Shown: positions 3,512-45,188 of the stretch, one piece after another | Layout: every line of letters begins with the position of its first letter | Numbering within the stretch: position 1 is the first letter of the stretch | Assembly: GCA_017795025.1 (NCBI GenBank) | Contig: CP051243.1 | Coordinates: 1,674,001-1,738,000 of the forward strand | Length of the DNA: 64,000 nt | Direction of reading: 5' to 3' | From: Flavobacteriales bacterium | Lineage (GTDB): Bacteria > Bacteroidota > Bacteroidia > Flavobacteriales > Schleiferiaceae | Made by a program: the position numbers and the translations under genes | Notes under the pieces: generated by a model | What the model was told of the DNA's origin: nothing | The model's database searches: none | What the model saw: only the letters and a program-made list of their open reading frames with translations

Positions 3512-3538
3512 GGAAATATGACAATCAGAAAGTGAGGC

Positions 3539-3730
3539 TTATTCCTCTTCCTGACGTAATTGCTGAATGTAGGCAGCCTTTAAAACCTCCTTGCGACGAG
3601 CAACAGATGGCTTTACAAATTGCTTGCGACCACGAATCTGCTTCATAACGCCGGTACGGTCGTATTTACGCTTGTAACGTTTTAATGCACGGTCGATAGA
3701 CTCACCTTCTTTAACAGAAATAACTAACAT
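3539..3730 (-). CDS. rpsU: 30S ribosomal protein bS21
   Basis: A 63-residue basic protein of the bS21 family (MLVISVKEGESIDRALKRYK, VARRKEVLKAAY). In Bacteroidota ribosomes bS21 helps hide the 16S anti-Shine-Dalgarno tail; Tyr54, the position I recall as implicated in this in Flavobacterium, is present. Many Flavobacteriales reportedly keep an extended Shine-Dalgarno sequence before rpsU for autoregulation, but the leader here ends TTAAAAGCGAAGA and shows none. It has its own promoter and terminator. Confidence 0.95.
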   Translation of the reverse strand: MLVISVKEGESIDRALKRYKRKYDRTGVMKQIRGRKQFVKPSVARRKEVLKAAYIQQLRQEEE

Positions 3731-3757
3731 TCTTCGCTTTTAATTTTTTTCGGGCTG

Positions 3758-3786
3758 CAAATATAGCCATTATATCTTATCAGCAA
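3758..3786 (-). promoter_or_regulatory. Promoter of rpsU
   Basis: On the minus strand TTG (3784-3786), an 18-nt spacer, then TATATTTG (3758-3765), a perfect TAnnTTTG. The rpsU ATG lies 27 nt further on. Confidence 0.72.
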
Positions 3787-3790
3787 TATT

Positions 3791-4960
3791 CTACTTCATC
3801 AATTCTCGAGAAATCACCAACTTTTGAATTTCGGTGGTTCCTTCCCCGATGGTACAAAGCTTTACATCGCGGTAAAACTTCTCTACTGGAAAGTCTTTAG
3901 TGAAGCCATATCCTCCAAAAATTTGAACCGCCTCATTACAAACCATCACCGCGACCTCGGAACTATACATTTTCGCTTTGGCCCCTGCAACAGTTACCTT
4001 TTCCCCTTTATTCTTAAGGTCACAAGCCTGCCAGGTTAATAGCTCAGCCGCATCAAGCTGCGTTGCCATATCTGCCAGTTTGAAGCTCACTCCCTGAAAT
4101 TTGGAGATGGGCTTTCCAAATTGCTCCCGTTCCTTAGAATATTTTACAGCTGCTTCTAGAGCACCATAACCGGTTCCTAAAGAAAGTGCAGCGATGGATA
4201 TCCGACCTCCATCTAAAATTTTCATAGCCTGAATAAAACCGTCTCCTTCTTCCCCGAGCATATTTGCATGAGGAACCCTACAGTTTTCAAAAATCAACTC
4301 TGCCGTTTCGGAAGCACGCATGCCTAACTTATCTTCTTTTCGCCCACCTTTAAATCCGGGGGTACCTTTCTCAATAATAAAGGCCGACATTCCATGAGAA
4401 TCGCCCTTTTCGCCGGTGCGAACGATGACCACCGCCACATCTCCAGATATGGCATGAGTAATAAAGTTTTTCGAGCCGTTGATAACCCATTCATCGCCCT
4501 CACGTACTGCCGTGGTGTTCATCCCACCTGCATCACTTCCAGTACCTACTTCGGTTAAACCCCAGGCGCCAATATGCTCAGCGGTAGCCAACTTTGGCAA
4601 GTACTTGCGCTTTTGCTCTTCATTCCCAAAAGTGAGGATATGATTAGTACATAATGAATTGTGCGCCGCCATACTTAGTCCTATCGAAGGATCTACCTTA
4701 GACAATTCTTTAATAGCAGTAACATACTCGTAGTATCCTAAGCCTGATCCTCCGTAAGTTTCGGGAACTAAAACGCCCATCAAACCAAGTTCCCCCAACT
4801 GCTTAAAAATTTCAACCGGAAATTCTTGGGCTTCATCCCACTTCATGATATTAGGACGGATGTGCTGTTCGGCAAAATCACGAACTGATTCTGCAATCAT
4901 TTTTTGCGTCTCCGAAGTGGAGAAGTCAATCCCAACAGAAAGGGTTGAATTTGTTTCCAT
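3791..4960 (-). CDS. Acyl-CoA dehydrogenase
   Basis: A 389-residue flavoenzyme that introduces the trans-2 double bond in acyl-CoA during beta-oxidation or branched-chain amino-acid breakdown. It shows the three standard parts: N-terminal helices (about 15-125), a middle beta domain with WGLTEVGTGSDAGG and NGSKNFITHA (about 130-235), and C-terminal helices with FGGYGFTKDFPVEKFYRD. The catalytic Glu is in IGEGTTEIQ near the end, the short-chain/butyryl type position. The 27-nt gap to the upstream gene suggests co-transcription. Exact chain-length preference cannot be read. Confidence 0.9.
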   Translation of the reverse strand: METNSTLSVGIDFSTSETQKMIAESVRDFAEQHIRPNIMKWDEAQEFPVEIFKQLGELGLMGVLVPETYGGSGLGYYEYVTAIKELSKVDPSIGLSMAAHNSLCTNHILTFGNEEQKRKYLPKLATAEHIGAWGLTEVGTGSDAGGMNTTAVREGDEWVINGSKNFITHAISGDVAVVIVRTGEKGDSHGMSAFIIEKGTPGFKGGRKEDKLGMRASETAELIFENCRVPHANMLGEEGDGFIQAMKILDGGRISIAALSLGTGYGALEAAVKYSKEREQFGKPISKFQGVSFKLADMATQLDAAELLTWQACDLKNKGEKVTVAGAKAKMYSSEVAVMVCNEAVQIFGGYGFTKDFPVEKFYRDVKLCTIGEGTTEIQKLVISRELMK

Positions 4961-8040: not shown

Positions 8041-9819
8041 ATGGCGGAAGCTAAAAACAAGAAGCCTCGTATTTCAAAGGATGCCCTTCGAAAGTCGCTC
8101 AGGCTCTATAAATACGTTAAACCGTATCGCGGAGAATTTAGTATCGGACTGCTGTTCTTGGTGTTAAGCTCAGCAGCAAACCTAGCCTTTCCAAAGTATT
8201 TGGGAGAATTGGTAGATGCGACCAACTCCGAAACCATCTTCGAAAACATACAGCGGGTCTCCGGGATTCTGGCCTTAATTTTAATCGCGCAGGCCATTGT
8301 GTCCTTTTTTCGGGTGGTGATTTTCGTTAATGTGACTCAGAAAACTTTGGCCAGCCTACGAAAGGCTACTTATGAGCATCTTATTCAACTACCCATAAGC
8401 TTCTTTAACCGCAAACGAGTGGGTGAATTAAACTCTCGGATCTCATCAGATATTTCCTTGCTACAAGAAACCTTCACCACTACCCTGGCCGAGTTTATTC
8501 GTCAGATGATTATCATTTTTGGCGGAATTACCATCTTACTGGTTACCTCCCCCAAACTCACCGGTTTTATGTTATTGGTGGTGCCGGTAGTGATGATTAT
8601 CGCAGTATTCTTTGGGCGTTTTATCCGCAACTATGCCAAGCGTATGCAGGATGAAGTGGCCGATTCGAATACCATCGTGGAAGAAACGCTGCAGGGCATC
8701 TTCAACGTAAAAGCCTATGCCAACGAGTTTTACGAAATTGCACGTTATCGAAAGCGAACCGATGAAGTGGCCCGCTTAGGTATGCGAGGTGGTTTGTACC
8801 GAGGTGCCTTTAGTTCCTTTATGATTATTGGCCTCTTTGGTGCTTTGGTGGCCGTCATCTGGCAAGGGGTTAACCTTATGGCTGAAGGAGAATTGCTAGC
8901 CGGTGAATTAATTAGCTTTCTTTTCTATAGCGCTTTTATCGGCGGCTCCATAGGTGGTTTAGCAAATGTTTACGCCAACCTTCAAAAAGCCATTGGCGCC
9001 ACTGAAGACCTGATGGATATTTTTAACGAAGGAAAGGAAGATCTACAGTCTGCAGAAGAAAGGTCCAAGCTAAACGATTTTAAAGGTTCCATTCAATTGC
9101 AGGATGTTAGCTTTAGTTACCCTAATCGTCCCGAACAGCAAGTATTAAAAAACTTAAACCTGGAGATTAAAGCTGGGGAACAAGTGGCCGTAGTGGGTCC
9201 AAGTGGTGCTGGAAAATCCACTCTAGTTTCGCTCATTCTCAACTTCTACGAAACGGAAAATGGCATCCTAAGCTTCGATGAGCGACCGGCCTCCAAATAC
9301 CAGTTATCGGCTCTACGCGATCAAATGGCGGTGGTTCCCCAGGATGTTTTCCTTTTTGGAGGAAGCATCAAAGAAAATATCGAGTATGGACGTCCGGGTG
9401 CCAACGAGGAGCAAATTATTGCGGCCGCCAAACAGGCCAATGCTTGGGAGTTTATTAATCGGTTCCCCGAAGGACTTAATACCTTAGTAGGCGAGCGAGG
9501 CGTTCAACTTTCAGGTGGCCAAAGACAAAGAGTGGCCATCGCCAGAGCGATTCTTAAAGATCCTCGCATCCTTATTTTAGATGAAGCAACTTCGGCCCTG
9601 GACTCCGAGTCGGAACGTTTAGTTCAAGATGCCCTCGATCATCTTATGAAAGGGCGTACTTCCATCGTAATTGCACACCGATTAGCTACGGTGCGTGCTG
9701 CCGACCGTATCTTGGTTTTAAATCAAGGCGAAATTGTGGAAAGCGGCAATCATGACGAACTAATGAAGAAAGAGGAAGGTCTGTATCGCGAATTGAGTAA
9801 CCTTCAGTTTAACGCTTAA
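8041..9819 (+). CDS. ABC exporter, fused permease and ATPase (MsbA/MDR type)
   Basis: A 592-residue half-transporter expected to dimerise in the inner membrane and export a lipid or drug. The type IV transmembrane domain spans about residues 25-320 with six helices. The nucleotide-binding domain has Walker A GPSGAGKST, signature LSGGQRQR, Walker B ILILDEATSALD and switch His in IVIAHRL. It lies 45 nt after the symporter with its own -7 box. The substrate cannot be told; lipid A-core flipping (MsbA) is one possibility. Confidence 0.92.
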   Translation: MAEAKNKKPRISKDALRKSLRLYKYVKPYRGEFSIGLLFLVLSSAANLAFPKYLGELVDATNSETIFENIQRVSGILALILIAQAIVSFFRVVIFVNVTQKTLASLRKATYEHLIQLPISFFNRKRVGELNSRISSDISLLQETFTTTLAEFIRQMIIIFGGITILLVTSPKLTGFMLLVVPVVMIIAVFFGRFIRNYAKRMQDEVADSNTIVEETLQGIFNVKAYANEFYEIARYRKRTDEVARLGMRGGLYRGAFSSFMIIGLFGALVAVIWQGVNLMAEGELLAGELISFLFYSAFIGGSIGGLANVYANLQKAIGATEDLMDIFNEGKEDLQSAEERSKLNDFKGSIQLQDVSFSYPNRPEQQVLKNLNLEIKAGEQVAVVGPSGAGKSTLVSLILNFYETENGILSFDERPASKYQLSALRDQMAVVPQDVFLFGGSIKENIEYGRPGANEEQIIAAAKQANAWEFINRFPEGLNTLVGERGVQLSGGQRQRVAIARAILKDPRILILDEATSALDSESERLVQDALDHLMKGRTSIVIAHRLATVRAADRILVLNQGEIVESGNHDELMKKEEGLYRELSNLQFNA

Positions 9820-9916
9820 GCGAACCAAGCTTAATCCGAGGCACCGAGAAATCGGTATAAACAGCTCATTGTTTAAATAATAAATCCTCCCCACTGAAAT
9901 CCAATCCTATTCCTTT

Positions 9917-9924
9917 TAAATTTG
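9917..9924 (+). promoter_or_regulatory. -7 box directly before the divIC-like gene
   Basis: TAAATTTG, perfect TAnnTTTG, ends 6 nt before the ATG at 9930, so the transcript may be leaderless or nearly so. Confidence 0.55.
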
Positions 9925-9929
9925 AATTC

Positions 9930-10256
9930 ATGCGTGAGTTCTGGGAAAGTCTCAAAAATAAAACCTGGTTTAAGATCATCAGCAACCGCTTTGTATTAAG
10001 CAGTTTGCTCTTTGTTTTATGGATGGGCTTTTTAGATGTGAACTCTTGGCTTATCCACCACGAATTAGACCAGGAACTGGATGACTTAAAGACCAGCATT
10101 GAGTACTATCAATCGGAAATTGAAAAAGACGAAGCCCGCCTTGAGCAGTTAAACTCCAACCCAGAAAACCTCGAAAAATTTGCCCGCGAGCAATACTATC
10201 TATGTGCACCGGGTGAAGAGATTTTCCTCATCGAAACTTCAGAAGAAACAGAATAA
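9930..10256 (+). CDS. Septum formation initiator, DivIC/FtsB family
   Basis: A 108-residue bitopic protein with one membrane helix (about residues 22-40) followed by a periplasmic coiled coil rich in Glu/Leu (about 45-80) and the family tail NPENLEKFAREQYYLCAPGEEIFLI. FtsB/DivIC links FtsL and FtsQ in the divisome. In Flavobacteriia this gene often precedes methylmalonyl-CoA mutase genes, as it nearly does here with one large gene in between. Confidence 0.85.
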   Translation: MREFWESLKNKTWFKIISNRFVLSSLLFVLWMGFLDVNSWLIHHELDQELDDLKTSIEYYQSEIEKDEARLEQLNSNPENLEKFAREQYYLCAPGEEIFLIETSEETE

Positions 10257-10328
10257 GCCCTTTCCGCTATAGCATAGATCGTGCTTAAAACTTTTGCTTC
10301 GTACTTTAGAGGCAAAAGAACACCAAAC

Positions 10329-13300
10329 ATGATATTAAGGATTACCCGAAACCTCCTTAGCCTTTTCTTAATTGGATTAATTTCCATTCCCCTTAATGCC
10401 CAAATCGACACCAGCTACCTCAGTAGCCTGGAATGGCGAAATATTGGCCCCTGGCGAGGCGGTCGATCATGTGCCGTAACCGGAGTGGCTGGACAAGCCA
10501 ATCTCTTTTATTTCGGCAGCACCGGAGGTGGTGTATGGCGCAGTACTGATGCTGGCAACTCCTGGGAAAATATTTCGGATGGATTTTTTGGCGGAAGTAT
10601 CGGTGCCATTGCCGTGGCGCCCTCCGACCCTAATGTGATTTACGTGGGTCAAGGAGAAGAAACCGTGCGTGGCAATGTGAGCTCAGGCTTTGGGGTTTGG
10701 AAAACCCTTGATGCTGGGAAGACTTGGCAGTTTATGGGCTTGAAAGACACCCGACATATCGGACGGATACGGGTACATCCTAAAAACCCGGATATTGCCT
10801 ACGTAGCAGCGATGGGTAACCTATATAAGGATACCGAAGAGCGCGGGGTTTATAAAACCACCGACGGTGGAAAGACTTGGCAACGCATCCTCTTTTCGGA
10901 TGCTGGTAGCGGCGCAGTGGACCTTCTGATAGATCCGCAAAATTACCGCACCCTCTACGCCTCCACTTGGACCATCCGCCGGACCCCTTACTCCCTTTCC
11001 AGTGGTGGCAAGGGCTCTAAACTTTGGAAAAGCACCGATGAAGGGGAAAGCTGGCAGGAAATCTCTAATAATGAAGGCTTCCCAAAAGGACTTAAAGGTA
11101 TTATTGGCGTAGCGGTGTCGCCCGCCAATAACCAAAGGGTTTGGGCTCAGGTAGAAAATGAACCTGATGGTGGCTTATACCGCAGCGATAATGGCGGTAA
11201 AACCTGGAAAAAATTGAACAATGATCGCGCATTACGTCAGAGGGCCTGGTACTACACCCGAATTTATGCGCACCCTAGTGATGTTGATCAAGTTTATGTG
11301 ATGAACGTACGCTATCACCACTCCAAAGACGGAGGTAAAACCTTTACCCCACATAATGCCCCGCACGGCGATCATCATGATTTATGGATCGATCCCCAAA
11401 ACCCCGACCGCATGATTATTGGCGATGATGGTGGGGCTCAGGTAAGCTTCGATGCGGGTGCCAATTGGACTACTTACTACAATCAACCTACCGCACAGTT
11501 TTATCGGGTGAATGTCGATAATCACTTCCCCTTTAGAATTTACGGCGCCCAACAGGATAATAGTTCCATCCGAATTTTACATCGCAGTGATAGTTACTTT
11601 ATCACCGAGAGTGATTGGGAGCAAACGGCTGGCGGGGAAGCTGGCCATCATGCGATCTACCCAAAAAATGAAGACATCGTGTTTGGTGGTGAGTATGGCG
11701 GATTTATGGCTCGGATTAATCACCAAACCAATCAACGTCAAGCCACCCATATTTGGCCTAACAACCCCTTAGGACATGGCGTGGAGAACATGAAGTACCG
11801 CTTCCAATGGAATTACCCCATGTTTTTCTCCAAGCACAATCCTCAAGAATTATACGCCTTTAGTAACCATGTTCATCGTAGCACCGACCTCGGAAAAACC
11901 TGGGAAACCTTATCGGGCGATTTAACTACCGATGACTCATCGAAACAGGGACCTTCGGGAGGTCCGATTACAAAGGACAACACCGCGGTGGAATACTACT
12001 GTACCATATTTGCCGCAGCAGAATCTGTTACCGAGGCTGGTGTTTTGTGGACCGGTAGCGATGATGGACGGGTTCACCTCAGCAAAGATCATGGTGAAAA
12101 TTGGCAGGAGGTTACGCCCAAAGGCCTACCCGAATTCACACAAATTAATAGCATGGAAGCCGATCCCTTTAATGCGGGCGGCCTCTATTTGGCTGGAACC
12201 CGTTATAAATGGGGCGACTTCCAACCCTATCTCTATTACACTTCGAATTACGGTCAATCTTGGCAGCGAATTGATGCCGGCGGTATTCCCAGAGAGCATT
12301 TTACACGCGTTATTCGCACGGATCCCAATCACGAAGGATTGCTTTTTGCTGGAACCGAATACGGCCTATACCTTTCGGTAGATGGCGGGGAACAATGGCA
12401 AGCATTTCAAAATAATCTACCTGAAACGCCCATTACCGACCTGGCGGTTAAGGATCGCCATTTGATAGCGGCCACCCAAGGACGCGGCTTTTGGATCCTC
12501 GACGACCTCAGCCCACTTTATGAACTCGATCAAAGCTTTAATCGGGAGCGTCACCTGTTTACCCCAAAGCCCACTTATTTAATGCAAGCGGGATATGGAG
12601 GAAAGTCTAAATCGGCCGGCGAAAATCACCCAAATGGCTTAATCCTAAATTACTATCTCCAGGATTTGGACAGCAACCTTAACTATCAATTGCGTTTTAT
12701 TGATGCCAAAGGAAAAGTAGTACGGCATTTTCACTCTAAAACAGAGCAGAAAAGTGCTAAATGGGAGCCTAAAAAAGGCGCCAATCGCTTTATTTGGAAT
12801 TTACGAGAACCTGGCTTTGAGCCTATTCAGGGGATGATTCTTTGGTATGTTTTGCGACAAGGCCCCTACATCTTACCCGGAAACTATACCGCTGAGCTCA
12901 TCGCTGGAAACGACACCCTTCGCAGCCAGTTCCCGGTTATTTTAGATCCGCGCCTTTCGGCAGATGATATGGAACTACAAGCCCAACATGACTTCATGGA
13001 TCGTATCCGTCAGGGAATGGACAGTATGAATACTTGTATTCGGGAAATTCGAAGTTTAAGAACCGACCTCGAAAGAGCTCAAAAACGTCTTTCCGATAGT
13101 ACTTTATCGAAAAGGGTGGAGCGTCTATTAAAGGAAAGTCAAGCCATCGAGGAAGCCCTATATCAAACCCAAAATCGCAGCCCTCAAGATCCCTTAAACT
13201 ACCCTATTCGCTTAAACAACAAATACGGACACTTGGGAGCCTTGGCTTCGATTGGATTTCAAGCGCCTACCGCATCGATGCTAGCGGTAGAACAAGAGCT

Positions 13301-13409
13301 TATGACCAAGATTGAGGCCGAGTTTGCCAAATGGGAAGCCTTAAAGAAAGAAGCTGAAACCTTAAATGCCGATTTACGAGCGAGCGATTTCGACATTTTA
13401 AAGTGGTAA
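10329..13409 (+). CDS. Large exported BNR/sortilin-like beta-propeller protein
   Basis: A 1026-residue exported protein. The start MILRITRN gives a signal peptide cleaved near LNAQ; an in-frame codon 16 residues earlier is rejected. Residues about 50-720 hold many BNR/sialidase repeats of the form S-x-D-x-G-x-T-W (RSTDAGNSWENI, KTTDGGKTWQRI, RSDNGGKTWKKL), typical of VPS10/sortilin-like propellers. The C-terminal third has a beta sandwich (about 760-880) and a helical, coiled-coil-like end. No type IX sorting tail is seen. Similar proteins are annotated as glycosyl hydrolases without proof; a binding or proteolysis-linked role is equally possible. Confidence 0.78.
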   Translation: MILRITRNLLSLFLIGLISIPLNAQIDTSYLSSLEWRNIGPWRGGRSCAVTGVAGQANLFYFGSTGGGVWRSTDAGNSWENISDGFFGGSIGAIAVAPSDPNVIYVGQGEETVRGNVSSGFGVWKTLDAGKTWQFMGLKDTRHIGRIRVHPKNPDIAYVAAMGNLYKDTEERGVYKTTDGGKTWQRILFSDAGSGAVDLLIDPQNYRTLYASTWTIRRTPYSLSSGGKGSKLWKSTDEGESWQEISNNEGFPKGLKGIIGVAVSPANNQRVWAQVENEPDGGLYRSDNGGKTWKKLNNDRALRQRAWYYTRIYAHPSDVDQVYVMNVRYHHSKDGGKTFTPHNAPHGDHHDLWIDPQNPDRMIIGDDGGAQVSFDAGANWTTYYNQPTAQFYRVNVDNHFPFRIYGAQQDNSSIRILHRSDSYFITESDWEQTAGGEAGHHAIYPKNEDIVFGGEYGGFMARINHQTNQRQATHIWPNNPLGHGVENMKYRFQWNYPMFFSKHNPQELYAFSNHVHRSTDLGKTWETLSGDLTTDDSSKQGPSGGPITKDNTAVEYYCTIFAAAESVTEAGVLWTGSDDGRVHLSKDHGENWQEVTPKGLPEFTQINSMEADPFNAGGLYLAGTRYKWGDFQPYLYYTSNYGQSWQRIDAGGIPREHFTRVIRTDPNHEGLLFAGTEYGLYLSVDGGEQWQAFQNNLPETPITDLAVKDRHLIAATQGRGFWILDDLSPLYELDQSFNRERHLFTPKPTYLMQAGYGGKSKSAGENHPNGLILNYYLQDLDSNLNYQLRFIDAKGKVVRHFHSKTEQKSAKWEPKKGANRFIWNLREPGFEPIQGMILWYVLRQGPYILPGNYTAELIAGNDTLRSQFPVILDPRLSADDMELQAQHDFMDRIRQGMDSMNTCIREIRSLRTDLERAQKRLSDSTLSKRVERLLKESQAIEEALYQTQNRSPQDPLNYPIRLNNKYGHLGALASIGFQAPTASMLAVEQELMTKIEAEFAKWEALKKEAETLNADLRASDFDILKW

Positions 13410-13470
13410 ACTGACATTACACCATAAGCAAACGCTCAATAATTAAGACCTTTGTATAAAATTTAAAAGC

Positions 13471-14862
13471 ATGTCTGAACCCCATCTTTTTGCCGAATTC
13501 AGCGGTCAAAGCGAGGCGGAATGGAAGGCCAAGATTACTAAGGATTTACGCGGTAAAGCCTACGAAGAAATTATCCGTCAAAATGCTGACGGAATTTCCA
13601 TCCAACCTATATATACCTCCGAAAGCACCGAATTAAAGCAACAAGCTTTAAAGGAGCATCCGAAATGGGATAATGTATTGGAAATTCTGGTTGAGGATGC
13701 CGAACAAGCCAATAAGGAAGCCTTAAACTACCTCAACCGCGGAGCCACCTCCCTCCTATTTTATTTGGTCGGAAAAGTTGATTTGGCGGTTCTACTTAAG
13801 GATATTCAACTCGAATATATCTGCACCAACTTTGTGATGGAAGGCTCGGTAGATTACTACCGACAGTCGTTTAAAGACCTCCTAGAAACCCGCGGTTTAG
13901 AAGAATCCGAACTAGAGGGCAGCTTCAACTTTGACATTCTCGAAAACCTAGCGCGCACCGGGAATTGGTTCGATTCGGAAACTGCCGACTTTGAGGCAGT
14001 CCGTGATCTATACGCCGCCAATTTTAAAGGGATGCGCAGTTTAGCCGTAAACACCAATCTCTTTGCCAATGCCGGAGCGAGCAGTGCCCAGCAACTTGGA
14101 ATTGCCCTTGCTATGGCCTACGAGTATGCCCATCGCCTCGAACTTAAAGAAAGCCGTTCCTTTTGGATCAATTTTGCAATTGGCTCGGATTACTTTGAGG
14201 AAATCGCCAAGCTGAGAGCCTTTCGTCGGCTTTGGTCGCAATGGCAAAAAGAACTGGGTATTCCCTTAACGGAGGTTCGGATTTACGCCGAAACGGCCTT
14301 GCGAAATAAAAGCATCCTTGATAAGTACAACAACCTCATCCGCACTACCGCCGAAGCCATGGCCGCTGTGATTGGTGGGGCAACCGAAGTTTGCATCAAA
14401 GGATTTGGCGAGCCTTTGGAAGATTTAGGTTTCTTCCCGCGTCGACTGGCTTTAAACCAACTCAGCATACTACAACATGAAAGTCGCTTTGATCAGGTAA
14501 GAGATATGGCCGCCGGCAACTATTGGGTCGAAAACCTCACGGAAGGTTTGGCTGCAAAAGGTTGGGACTTCTTTAAAGCCATCGAGGAGCAAGGGGGTTA
14601 CCTCAAAGCCCTAAGCAGTGGTTGGTTGCAAAGTGAAATTGCGAAAATGGCTGAAAAGGAGCAGGCGCTTTTTGATCAAGGCCAGCGTAAGATGATTGGG
14701 GTAAACATCTACCGGAAGGAAGATGAAGAATACAGCCCCGAAATTAGACAAGCACTAGAAAAGAGCGCAAGGCCAAACAAGGGCCATGTTGAGGCGATTA
14801 AAGCCCATCGTCTAGCCGAATCATTGGAAAAAGAAATCATCCTCGAAAAAACAAACTCATGA
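13471..14862 (+). CDS. mutA: Methylmalonyl-CoA mutase small subunit
   Basis: A 463-residue paralog of the catalytic subunit that pairs with MutB. It keeps the mutase TIM-barrel fold but is diverged and has no C-terminal B12 domain. Motifs include [21 protein letters not shown] and [13 protein letters not shown]. The gene overlaps mutB by 4 nt (ATGA). The heterodimer converts (R)-methylmalonyl-CoA and succinyl-CoA in propionate metabolism. Confidence 0.92.
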
Positions 14863-44420: not shown

Positions 44421-44820
44421 GGGGCTGATCGGTTTCGACAGCAAGACGAAGTGGAATGTAAGCATGTCGGGACATGGAGATGTCTCCCGTAAAAAAGATG
44501 CTTCAAACTATAGTTGGCGAAAACAATTTCGCACTTGCCGCCTAAGCACGCAGTATGCGGCTTTGAGCTAATCCACGCGTAAGACGCGGGAGCAAGTCAT
44601 TCCTCCGAACCTAAGTCTGGATGGTTTGGATTCAGGAGTGTCATTAAATCTGGACTAACGGGTAAAGCGTTGCGTAGTGCCCGCGACATTGTAATCCGCA
44701 AATAAGCTAGTACTCGGGTGTTTGTTCCCAGGTGCTAGTCGAAAACCGAATAACAAAATAAGCATGTAGAAAGCCTTCCGTTTCCTTGTTTGCACCGGGG
44801 TTCGACTCCCCGCAGCTCCA
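44421..44820 (+). ncRNA. ssrA: tmRNA (ssrA)
   Basis: A 400-nt one-piece tmRNA. The ends form a tRNA-like acceptor: GGGGCTG pairs with CAGCTCC (one G-U), the T-arm is GGGGTTCGACTCCCC, and the 5' part has the CGGTTTCGACAG block. The tag frame, 44516-44545, reads GENNFALAA and then TAA. It rescues stalled ribosomes with SmpB. No CCA is encoded. A terminator follows. Confidence 0.95.
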
Positions 44821-44832
44821 CAATGTATTTAA

Positions 44833-44867
44833 GCCCCGTTTGCGCAGCAGGCGGGGTTTTCTTTTTT
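44833..44867 (+). terminator. Terminator of ssrA
   Basis: CCCCG (44834-44838) pairs with CGGGG (44852-44856), followed by TTTTCTTTTTT. Its T-run is the left end of repeat copy 1. Confidence 0.8.
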
Positions 44868-44992
44868 AAAGCTGGACCAAGCTTGCTTGAGGACAGATTA
44901 AAAAAGAAAAGGCACGCAGGACGAAGTCCAAGGGGCTTAAATACTTGGGTAAAAGGAGCAACATCTGGGTGCAGCGAAGCTACTCCCCGCTT
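44853..44992 (+). repeat. 140-bp direct repeat, copy 1
   Basis: Identical to copy 2 except one base (G at 44949, A at 45122). Inside is a 13-bp inverted repeat, TTTTCTTTTTTAA (44857-44869) with TTAAAAAAGAAAA (44898-44910). GGGGCTTAAATAC (44932-44944) is the reverse complement of GTATTTAAGCCCC (44825-44837) before the repeat. It ends ACTCCCCGCTT. An open frame through it encodes FFFKAGPSLLEDRLKKKR and further, with no sign of being a gene. Confidence 0.92.
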
Positions 44993-45025
44993 TGCCTGAA
45001 TAAATATCTCTGCCCGATGTGCACA

Positions 45026-45165
45026 GGGGTTTTCTTTTTTAAAGCTGGACCAAGCTTGCTTGAGGACAGATTAAAAAAGAAAAGGCACGCAGGACGAAGT
45101 CCAAGGGGCTTAAATACTTGGATAAAAGGAGCAACATCTGGGTGCAGCGAAGCTACTCCCCGCTT
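45026..45165 (+). repeat. 140-bp direct repeat, copy 2
   Basis: 139 of 140 bases match copy 1, offset by 173 nt. The 33-nt spacer (44993-45025) differs from the sequence preceding copy 1. The same internal inverted repeat is present. A weak stem CTCTG/CAGGG precedes its T-rich start, giving a second terminator-like structure. Bases 45166-45188 before the next gene hold nothing recognisable. Confidence 0.92.
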
Positions 45166-45188
45166 GAATTCATAATGCATTACACTCC

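Follow-up and report, generated by a model that had tools for sequence, protein, structure and literature searches.

Non-coding repeat units attached to tmRNA and tRNA genes in a Schleiferiaceae bacterium and their likeness to the rtT repeats of Escherichia coli

The ends of tRNA genes are the commonest landing sites of phages and genomic islands. Integron attC and other folded recombination sites of the tyrosine-recombinase type vary in sequence while the palindrome is kept. The closest described system to that reported here is formed by the rtT (RttR) repeats of Escherichia coli tyrT, the RtT family of Rfam, which to our knowledge are known from one locus and have never been well explained. 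In strain MG1655 units of 178 bp lie behind tyrV, each ending in 19 nt that repeat the end of the tRNA, with cores at +159, +337 and +515. Copy number was found to vary widely, with matches in 4655 of 5426 E. coli genomes at 1-9 places (median 2). A query in which the tRNA was joined to its native trailer was matched uninterrupted and at full identity in 7 of the 25 matches listed, and one such empty site, between purU and narI, was checked. These exact empty sites, seen in E. coli only, indicate that whole rtT units come and go at the core. The E. coli unit had no match in phage records; its presence on plasmid records was considered as a sign of movement and rejected, since those records include chromosome-size ones. 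According to one study, rtT RNAs are released from tRNA transcripts in E. coli (PMC4986893). The Islander method for finding integrative islands rejects candidates without an integrase or below 2 kb (PMC4383910), and units like those considered here would be filtered out by these two demands.

The window analysed is a stretch of 64,000 nucleotides from a Flavobacteriales bacterium (Schleiferiaceae; assembly GCA_017795025.1, contig CP051243.1, positions 1,674,001 to 1,738,000 of the forward strand), and positions of the ssrA locus are those of the window. The source genome is referred to as G000, its congeners as G002 and G003, and a genome of another genus as G009.

The repeat pair behind ssrA

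The features of the locus are listed below.

44421-44821, plus strand: ssrA (tmRNA), tag GENNFALAA, whose 3' end is copied by the units (ARAGORN; Rfam RF00023)
44805-44813, plus strand: ACTCCCCGC, the beginning of the tmRNA 3'-end core, counted from the A of the T-loop and repeated downstream (sequence reading)
44825-44837, plus strand: arm P1, 13 bp, from right after ssrA into the terminator stem (inverted repeat)
44834-44856, plus strand: H1, the ssrA intrinsic terminator hairpin, followed by a T tract (fold of 44822-44870)
44857-44869, plus strand: arm P2 of copy 1, the T tract and beyond (inverted repeat)
44872-44896, plus strand: loop hairpin of copy 1, a variant of the GCCAAGCTYGCTTGAGC motif (alignment with relatives)
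44898-44910, plus strand: arm P2' of copy 1 (inverted repeat)
44919-44929, plus strand: H3 of copy 1, a small hairpin, GGACGAAGTCC, which is GGCCAAAGGCC in G002 and G003 (one paired change)
44932-44944, plus strand: arm P1' of copy 1 (inverted repeat)
44967-44987, plus strand: right-end hairpin of copy 1, like a tRNA T-arm with another loop
44982-44990, plus strand: repeat of the tmRNA 3'-end core at the close of unit 1, at a distance of 177 bp from that in the gene (sequence reading)
44853-44992, plus strand: 140-bp repeat, copy 1
45012-45029, plus strand: degenerate counterpart of the terminator before copy 2 (alignment with G002)
45026-45165, plus strand: 140-bp repeat, copy 2
45030-45042, plus strand: arm P2 of copy 2
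45071-45083, plus strand: arm P2' of copy 2
45092-45102, plus strand: H3 of copy 2
45105-45117, plus strand: arm P1' of copy 2
45155-45163, plus strand: repeat of the tmRNA 3'-end core at the close of unit 2, 173 bp further downstream (sequence reading)

A preliminary description of this DNA had drawn attention to two near-perfect 140-nt copies (44853-44992 and 45026-45165) with one mismatch and a 13-bp inverted repeat inside each. All three points were confirmed: the copies are 99% identical at a spacing of 173, differ only by G at 44949 against A at 45122, and contain the inverted repeats 44857-44869/44898-44910 and 45030-45042/45071-45083. Such near-identity over 140 bp is far beyond chance. 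The spacer between the copies had been described as unrelated to the sequence before copy 1, which must be corrected, as 45012-45029 aligns in degenerate form with the ssrA terminator at 44834-44856 and the alignment places an intact second terminator of G002 at the matching position; the real ssrA unit is therefore ~173-177 bp rather than 140 bp. An outer 13-bp inverted repeat (44825-44837/44932-44944) joins the stretch just after ssrA to the far side of copy 1, and each 140-bp copy has at its right edge 9 nt that repeat the tmRNA 3' end. These P1 arms are the same in G002, and 11 of the pairs are found in G003. H1 has the GC-rich hairpin and T tract of an intrinsic terminator (fold of 44822-44870: -20 kcal/mol, z -3.97) and makes up only a part of the unit. 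In the loop hairpin, alignment positions 53-74 (first row) are identical in G000, G002 and G003, with a related stretch in G001 and G005.

The state of this junction varies among related genomes. G002 has a copy of ~90% identity (90.4%) behind ssrA together with a partial second copy 171 bp on and a homologous spacer. In G003 an 89% (88.9%) copy has been displaced from ssrA by an island of ~5.2 kb (about 8770-14010 of its locus), which sits in the ssrA 3' end and encodes a tyrosine integrase and a helix-turn-helix protein. No unit was found at ssrA in G004 and G006, and G001 and G005 share with the source genome only the terminator and ~44 nt of the ssrA unit, followed by other repeats. The latter are tandem repeats of the AACCGCTCGCTCG... 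type, and their presence makes the ssrA junction variable in this genus.

Minus-strand reading frames cross the repeats, one of 66 aa (44980-45180) and one of 113 aa in G002 (3512-3853 of its locus), so that a small protein gene on that strand had to be considered. The G002 frame, however, runs antisense into the tmRNA. A coding function was rejected because differences between species alter amino acids and the arms are kept by pairing, not by codons, and the chance of such a gene is regarded as negligible.

Related units behind other tRNA genes

The preliminary description had called for a search of the whole genome for the 140-bp unit, above all beside other tRNA or tmRNA genes, and had stated that the absence of further copies and of any transcript would suggest a simple local duplication. 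A DNA search found no near-identical copy elsewhere in the genome at E<=0.001, but structural relatives follow seven tRNA genes. To look beside tRNA genes was thus the right course, and the conclusion from a lack of copies does not hold: plain BLAST is blind to the other units, whose sequence is for the greater part particular to each locus. The relatives came from reading the sequence 3' of each of the 33 tRNA genes in the source genome, ssrA bringing the total to 34. Units, mostly in tandem, lie behind 8 of the 34 genes, namely Val-tac, Arg-tct, Pro-tgg, Gln-ttg, Ser-gga, two Ser-tga and ssrA, and a remnant lies behind one Met gene. The unit-bearing tRNAs are mostly the same in G003 and G004.

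The order of parts is P1, terminator hairpin, P2, a loop that is often GCCAAGCTYGCTTGAGC, P2', a small hairpin, P1', a tail and a copy of the tRNA 3' end, which runs from the T-loop on (9 nt at ssrA). Units are 114-187 bp long, are non-coding and carry no integrase gene. Strong matches to a covariance model of the 78-nt core brought to light the Val-tac arrays in G003 and G000 as well as a unit of G005; a 79-nt core match at G000:C1:1050753 (E 0.036) lies inside a coding sequence and was discarded as chance. The array behind tRNA-Val (Val-tac) of G003 consists of 172 bp x 3.1, and periods of the other arrays range from 108 to 187.

Other repeats accompany some of these genes. In the locus at G000:C1:2005k the second half of the Val-tac unit recurs several times (2254-2988, 4340-4420), mixed with 8-bp TTGGTGGA minisatellites, and one copy lies 1.4 kb further on. 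Longer partial copies of tRNA-Met, with terminators, stand behind that gene in G000 (L105) and in G003 (L305), which shows that arrays of tRNA pseudogenes arise here as well. At tRNA-Ser(tga) G000 and G003 have the repeat unit; in G004 an island with a tyrosine integrase (1854-3083 of L280) sits in the 3' end of this gene.

A wider survey relied on the loop motif. Among 99 related genomes GCCAAGCTYGCTTRAG was found in 21 places (14 genomes, 8 of 42 genera), 20 of them behind a tRNA gene; as four of the 20 belong to one array, this amounts to 17 of 18 loci. The reversed pattern gave 1 match in the same 99 genomes. The longer motif GCCAAGCTYGCTTGAGCG, scanned over GTDB with one genome per species, returned at least 118 stretches, and a tRNA or tmRNA gene lay no more than 600 nt upstream in 79 of these 118, at 20-59 nt in 65 of the 79. 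A reading of the titles assigned 70 of the 80 listed titled stretches to Bacteroidota; of the other 10, whose titles do not name Bacteroidota, one had a tRNA or tmRNA gene upstream. Several of the stretches outside the 79 carry a tRNA 3' end without its 5' part, as would be seen at the far end of an island, and when open reading frames beside such or similar displaced units were tested, two of the six (L200, L235) proved to be integrases. Viral contigs gave 4 stretches with the loop motif, 0 of them with a tRNA upstream. On a viral contig and in other bacteria (L254, L144, L147, L185, L197) the motif tips long hairpins away from tRNA genes, and it may be a generally favoured hairpin tip. A search of the literature, mainly of titles and the openings of abstracts, found no account of such units in Bacteroidota.

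The ssrA repeats are members of a family of non-coding units linked to tRNA and tmRNA genes, and that the family is real is beyond serious doubt. In view of the recurrence behind tRNA genes in its own genome, in relatives and across GTDB, a local duplication without wider meaning was rejected.

Pairing of the arms

Arm pairing was measured in 81 non-redundant loci picked by the loop motif alone, 77 of them with enough sequence, as the longest exact complement between the stretch from tRNA end to motif and the 150 nt past the motif. Within a locus this complement averaged 12.2 nt and reached at least 10 nt in 54 of the 77 loci, leaving 23 with no match of that length, versus a mean of 6.8 nt and 57/1155 when the partner was taken from the locus of another tRNA; 25 of the 81 loci are Arg-acg, so that the loci are partly related and not independent. 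The arms thus differ between loci yet match their own partner. In G009 arms of at least 10 nt were found in 0 of 31 loci.

Comparison of orthologous loci revealed paired changes. P1 of Pro-tgg in four species has 12 offsets paired in all, 8 with different pairs, and paired changes were counted at 8 of 9 offsets in Arg-tct (three species), 6 of 10 in Val-tac (three species) and 8 of 11 in Ser-gga (two species), with the caveat that offsets were anchored at the tRNA end and not aligned, which may make a shift of one base look like paired change. For G004 tmRNA, G004 and G003 Ser-tga and G003 Gln the helices compared proved to be spurious or other ones rather than P1 arms of a unit, and for that reason the tallies for tmRNA, Ser-tga and Gln were left out of the evidence. 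In Pro, Arg, Val and Ser P1 extends into the last bases of the tRNA itself. The search for long arms also returned, for example, matches of 10 nt at Cys-gca of G000 and of 11 nt, in low-complexity sequence, at Gly-gcc of G004; arm matches thus occur without the architecture of the unit, and arms alone do not define it. The arm pairing is under constraint or continual correction.

Whether it operates in DNA or RNA was approached through wobble pairs. The 86 helices of the long arms contain 1251 Watson-Crick, 13 GU, 5 AC and 14 other pairs, and 40 terminator-type hairpins, counted by the same rule, 468 Watson-Crick, 14 GU and 3 AC, giving GU shares of 1.0% (13/1283) versus 2.9% (14/485). Such counts depend on the rule, and a strict 9-nt seed gives 3 GU, 2 AC and 8 others of 1321 for the long arms and 27 GU, 7 AC and 6 others of 581 for the terminator hairpins. 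The arms thus keep to Watson-Crick pairing more closely than terminator hairpins, which are known to act as RNA, and this speaks for pairing or templating at the level of DNA; the excess of GU over AC in the long arms (13 vs 5) leans slightly towards plus-strand RNA. On balance the pairing probably takes place at the DNA rather than the RNA level, a view held with moderate confidence.

The rival view is that read-through transcripts fold as P1-H1-P2-H3, much like rtT RNA, and regulate tRNA maturation or act as small RNAs, the arms being kept by RNA pairing. It would account for the paired arm changes in orthologues and for the GU excess, and the hairpin loops of the plus strand look GNA/GNRA-like (judged by eye, uncounted). 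E. coli rtT RNA is itself transcribed, according to the study already cited (PMC4986893). Yet at ssrA and the other loci read the strong terminator H1 precedes most of the unit, the long arms have fewer GU pairs than terminator-type hairpins, and there is no Rfam match. The consensus fold of the four ssrA units over 140 bp was also almost devoid of covariation signal on either strand, because the ssrA orthologues are too alike. A structured RNA is consequently considered rather unlikely.

Direct repeats of the tRNA end and recombination

In 21 of the 77 loci a run of at least 10 nt out of the final 22 nt of the tRNA recurs downstream, versus 12/1155 in swapped pairs, and in 56 loci there is none of that length; in 13 of the 77 the repeat is 17-18 nt long, from T-loop to tRNA end, and it is shorter elsewhere. 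The T-loop could be placed in 51 loci, 21 of which have a repeat of at least 8 nt, 12 of them from position 58; the swapped control gave 44/612 and also favoured position 58 (10/44). A terminator-like hairpin with a T run comes after 13 of the 17 repeats extending to the end of the tRNA, and in two of those 13 (L115, L195) it belongs to the next unit. A repeat followed by a second terminator is the arrangement left by an insertion, or by a tandem duplication, in which the tRNA end serves as core. G009, in which an 18-nt tRNA-end repeat was found in 2 of 31 loci, has such repeats without arms of 10 nt, so the two traits are separable.

Concerted evolution is seen in most arrays, copies within an array being more alike than their best match to another species in 14 of 16. 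The exceptions are the Arg array of G000 (81.2%, versus a 45-nt match of 82.2% to G004) and the ssrA copies of G002 (98.3% over 60 nt, versus 100% between G002 and G000). At ssrA the copies of G000 are 99.3% identical over 140 nt versus 90.4% to G002 and 88.9% to G003. The preliminary description had named three possible explanations, namely recent duplication, gene conversion and a selected element. Gene conversion gains from the finding that the G000 copies are more alike than those of different species although G002 has a second copy; the paired arm changes in orthologues and the recurrence behind tRNAs speak for a selected or self-maintaining element.

Plain local tandem duplication, with neutral near-palindromes perfected by template switching and with neither function nor element, would agree with near-identical copies occurring at the ssrA locus only, with arms that are almost purely Watson-Crick and with arrays that vary freely in number and period. 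It is nevertheless judged improbable. The same order of parts and the loop motif recur behind tRNA genes in several genera and the repeat starts at the T-loop (with the above proviso about position 58), and chance duplications would not pick such borders.

Equally doubtful is the idea of non-autonomous miniature integrative elements, in which a circle of 114-178 bp, perhaps as a folded single strand, enters the T-loop site by means of an island's integrase. This would fit the exactly 17-18 nt direct repeats, the second terminator behind them and, in the G003 Val-tac array, a tandem period equal to core plus unit (172). Right ends of the form GGAT-n-AATCC resemble two half-sites of a T-arm, and integrases occur at the same tRNA ends (G003 ssrA, G004 Ser-tga, and beside the displaced units L200 and L235). 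However, only two of the six tested neighbours of displaced units were integrases, no circle, donor or exact empty site was found in Bacteroidota, and units at one tRNA are common to species of the genus, a sign of long residence rather than movement.

The explanation preferred as a whole, with reasonable though far from complete confidence, is a non-coding unit attached to tRNA and tmRNA genes, with recombination at the core, gene conversion and arms that pair as DNA. A complete unit would run from the tRNA 3' end (~last 17 nt) through trailer, terminator, loop, inverted trailer/terminator flanks and T-arm-like end to the next tRNA 3' end. We infer that recombination at the tRNA-end core, either homologous or by a tyrosine integrase crossing over in the T-loop, adds, removes and multiplies units, and such recombination is the step regarded as likely. 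Gene conversion would homogenise the copies within an array, and the arms could stay complementary by pairing as DNA, in a hairpin or cruciform, or through templated repair of a near-palindrome. The tRNA would thereby get a two-sided terminator and, close to a favoured integration site, a reserve of 3' ends; that the host profits from the termination or from this reserve is suggested only tentatively.

A recurrent unit with arms evolving in step with the tail of the tRNA would bring together the subjects of tRNA transcription, site-specific recombination and DNA palindromes, and the family gives the rtT repeats a broad comparative setting. It can now be tested whether the units serve as spare landing sites, move as minimal elements or yield processed RNAs; island finders that demand an integrase and 2 kb would miss them. 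As speculation of low probability, they might be phylum-wide, gene-less selfish DNA on tRNA and tmRNA genes: minimal att-site elements of ~100-180 bp that enter the T-loop site with borrowed integrases, furnish the gene with another tail and terminator, and form palindromes matched to the locus through which a folded single strand could be recombined, with rtT a relative in kind.

Comparison with rtT repeats and other known systems

REP/RAYT sequences are dispersed over the genome with a partner transposase; the copies of the unit that were found adjoined tRNA genes. Intrinsic bidirectional terminators have in common with the units a hairpin with a T tract on both strands, but in the units complementarity continues past the T tract and into the last bases of the tRNA, and the units multiply in arrays. 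Likeness to attC sites is one of principle only, consisting of varying sequence, a kept palindrome and an adjacent site of the tyrosine-recombinase type; no integron integrase was seen in the loci read. With the integrative islands collected by Islander the units share the tRNA gene, the direct repeat of its 3' end, the insert between and the old trailer, and a tRNA gene with a displaced 3' fragment, as used to recognise islands, is found with the units. They differ in having no integrase gene and in being far under 2 kb, integrases being located in separate islands at the same genes.

The rtT repeats remain the nearest counterpart. In both systems tandem units stand behind a tRNA gene (178 bp in E. 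coli versus 114-177 bp here, with 173-177 bp at ssrA and 172 bp x 3.1 at G003 Val-tac falling close to the ~170-180 bp of rtT), and in both the unit is closed by the tRNA 3' end from the T-loop on, 19 nt in E. coli and 17-18 nt in the complete cases here, the ssrA copy being partial at only 9 nt. The E. coli unit, by contrast, lacks paired trailer arms, the sole inverted repeat of at least 7 nt found near it pairing a stretch inside the unit with the tRNA-end copy, and here many tRNA genes and the tmRNA gene carry units, with arms peculiar to each. Scanning with cmscan at the gathering score gave no match to Rfam RtT in the window (only tmRNA and tRNA) or in eight loci (only tRNA). The family works like the rtT repeats but lies outside Rfam RtT by sequence.
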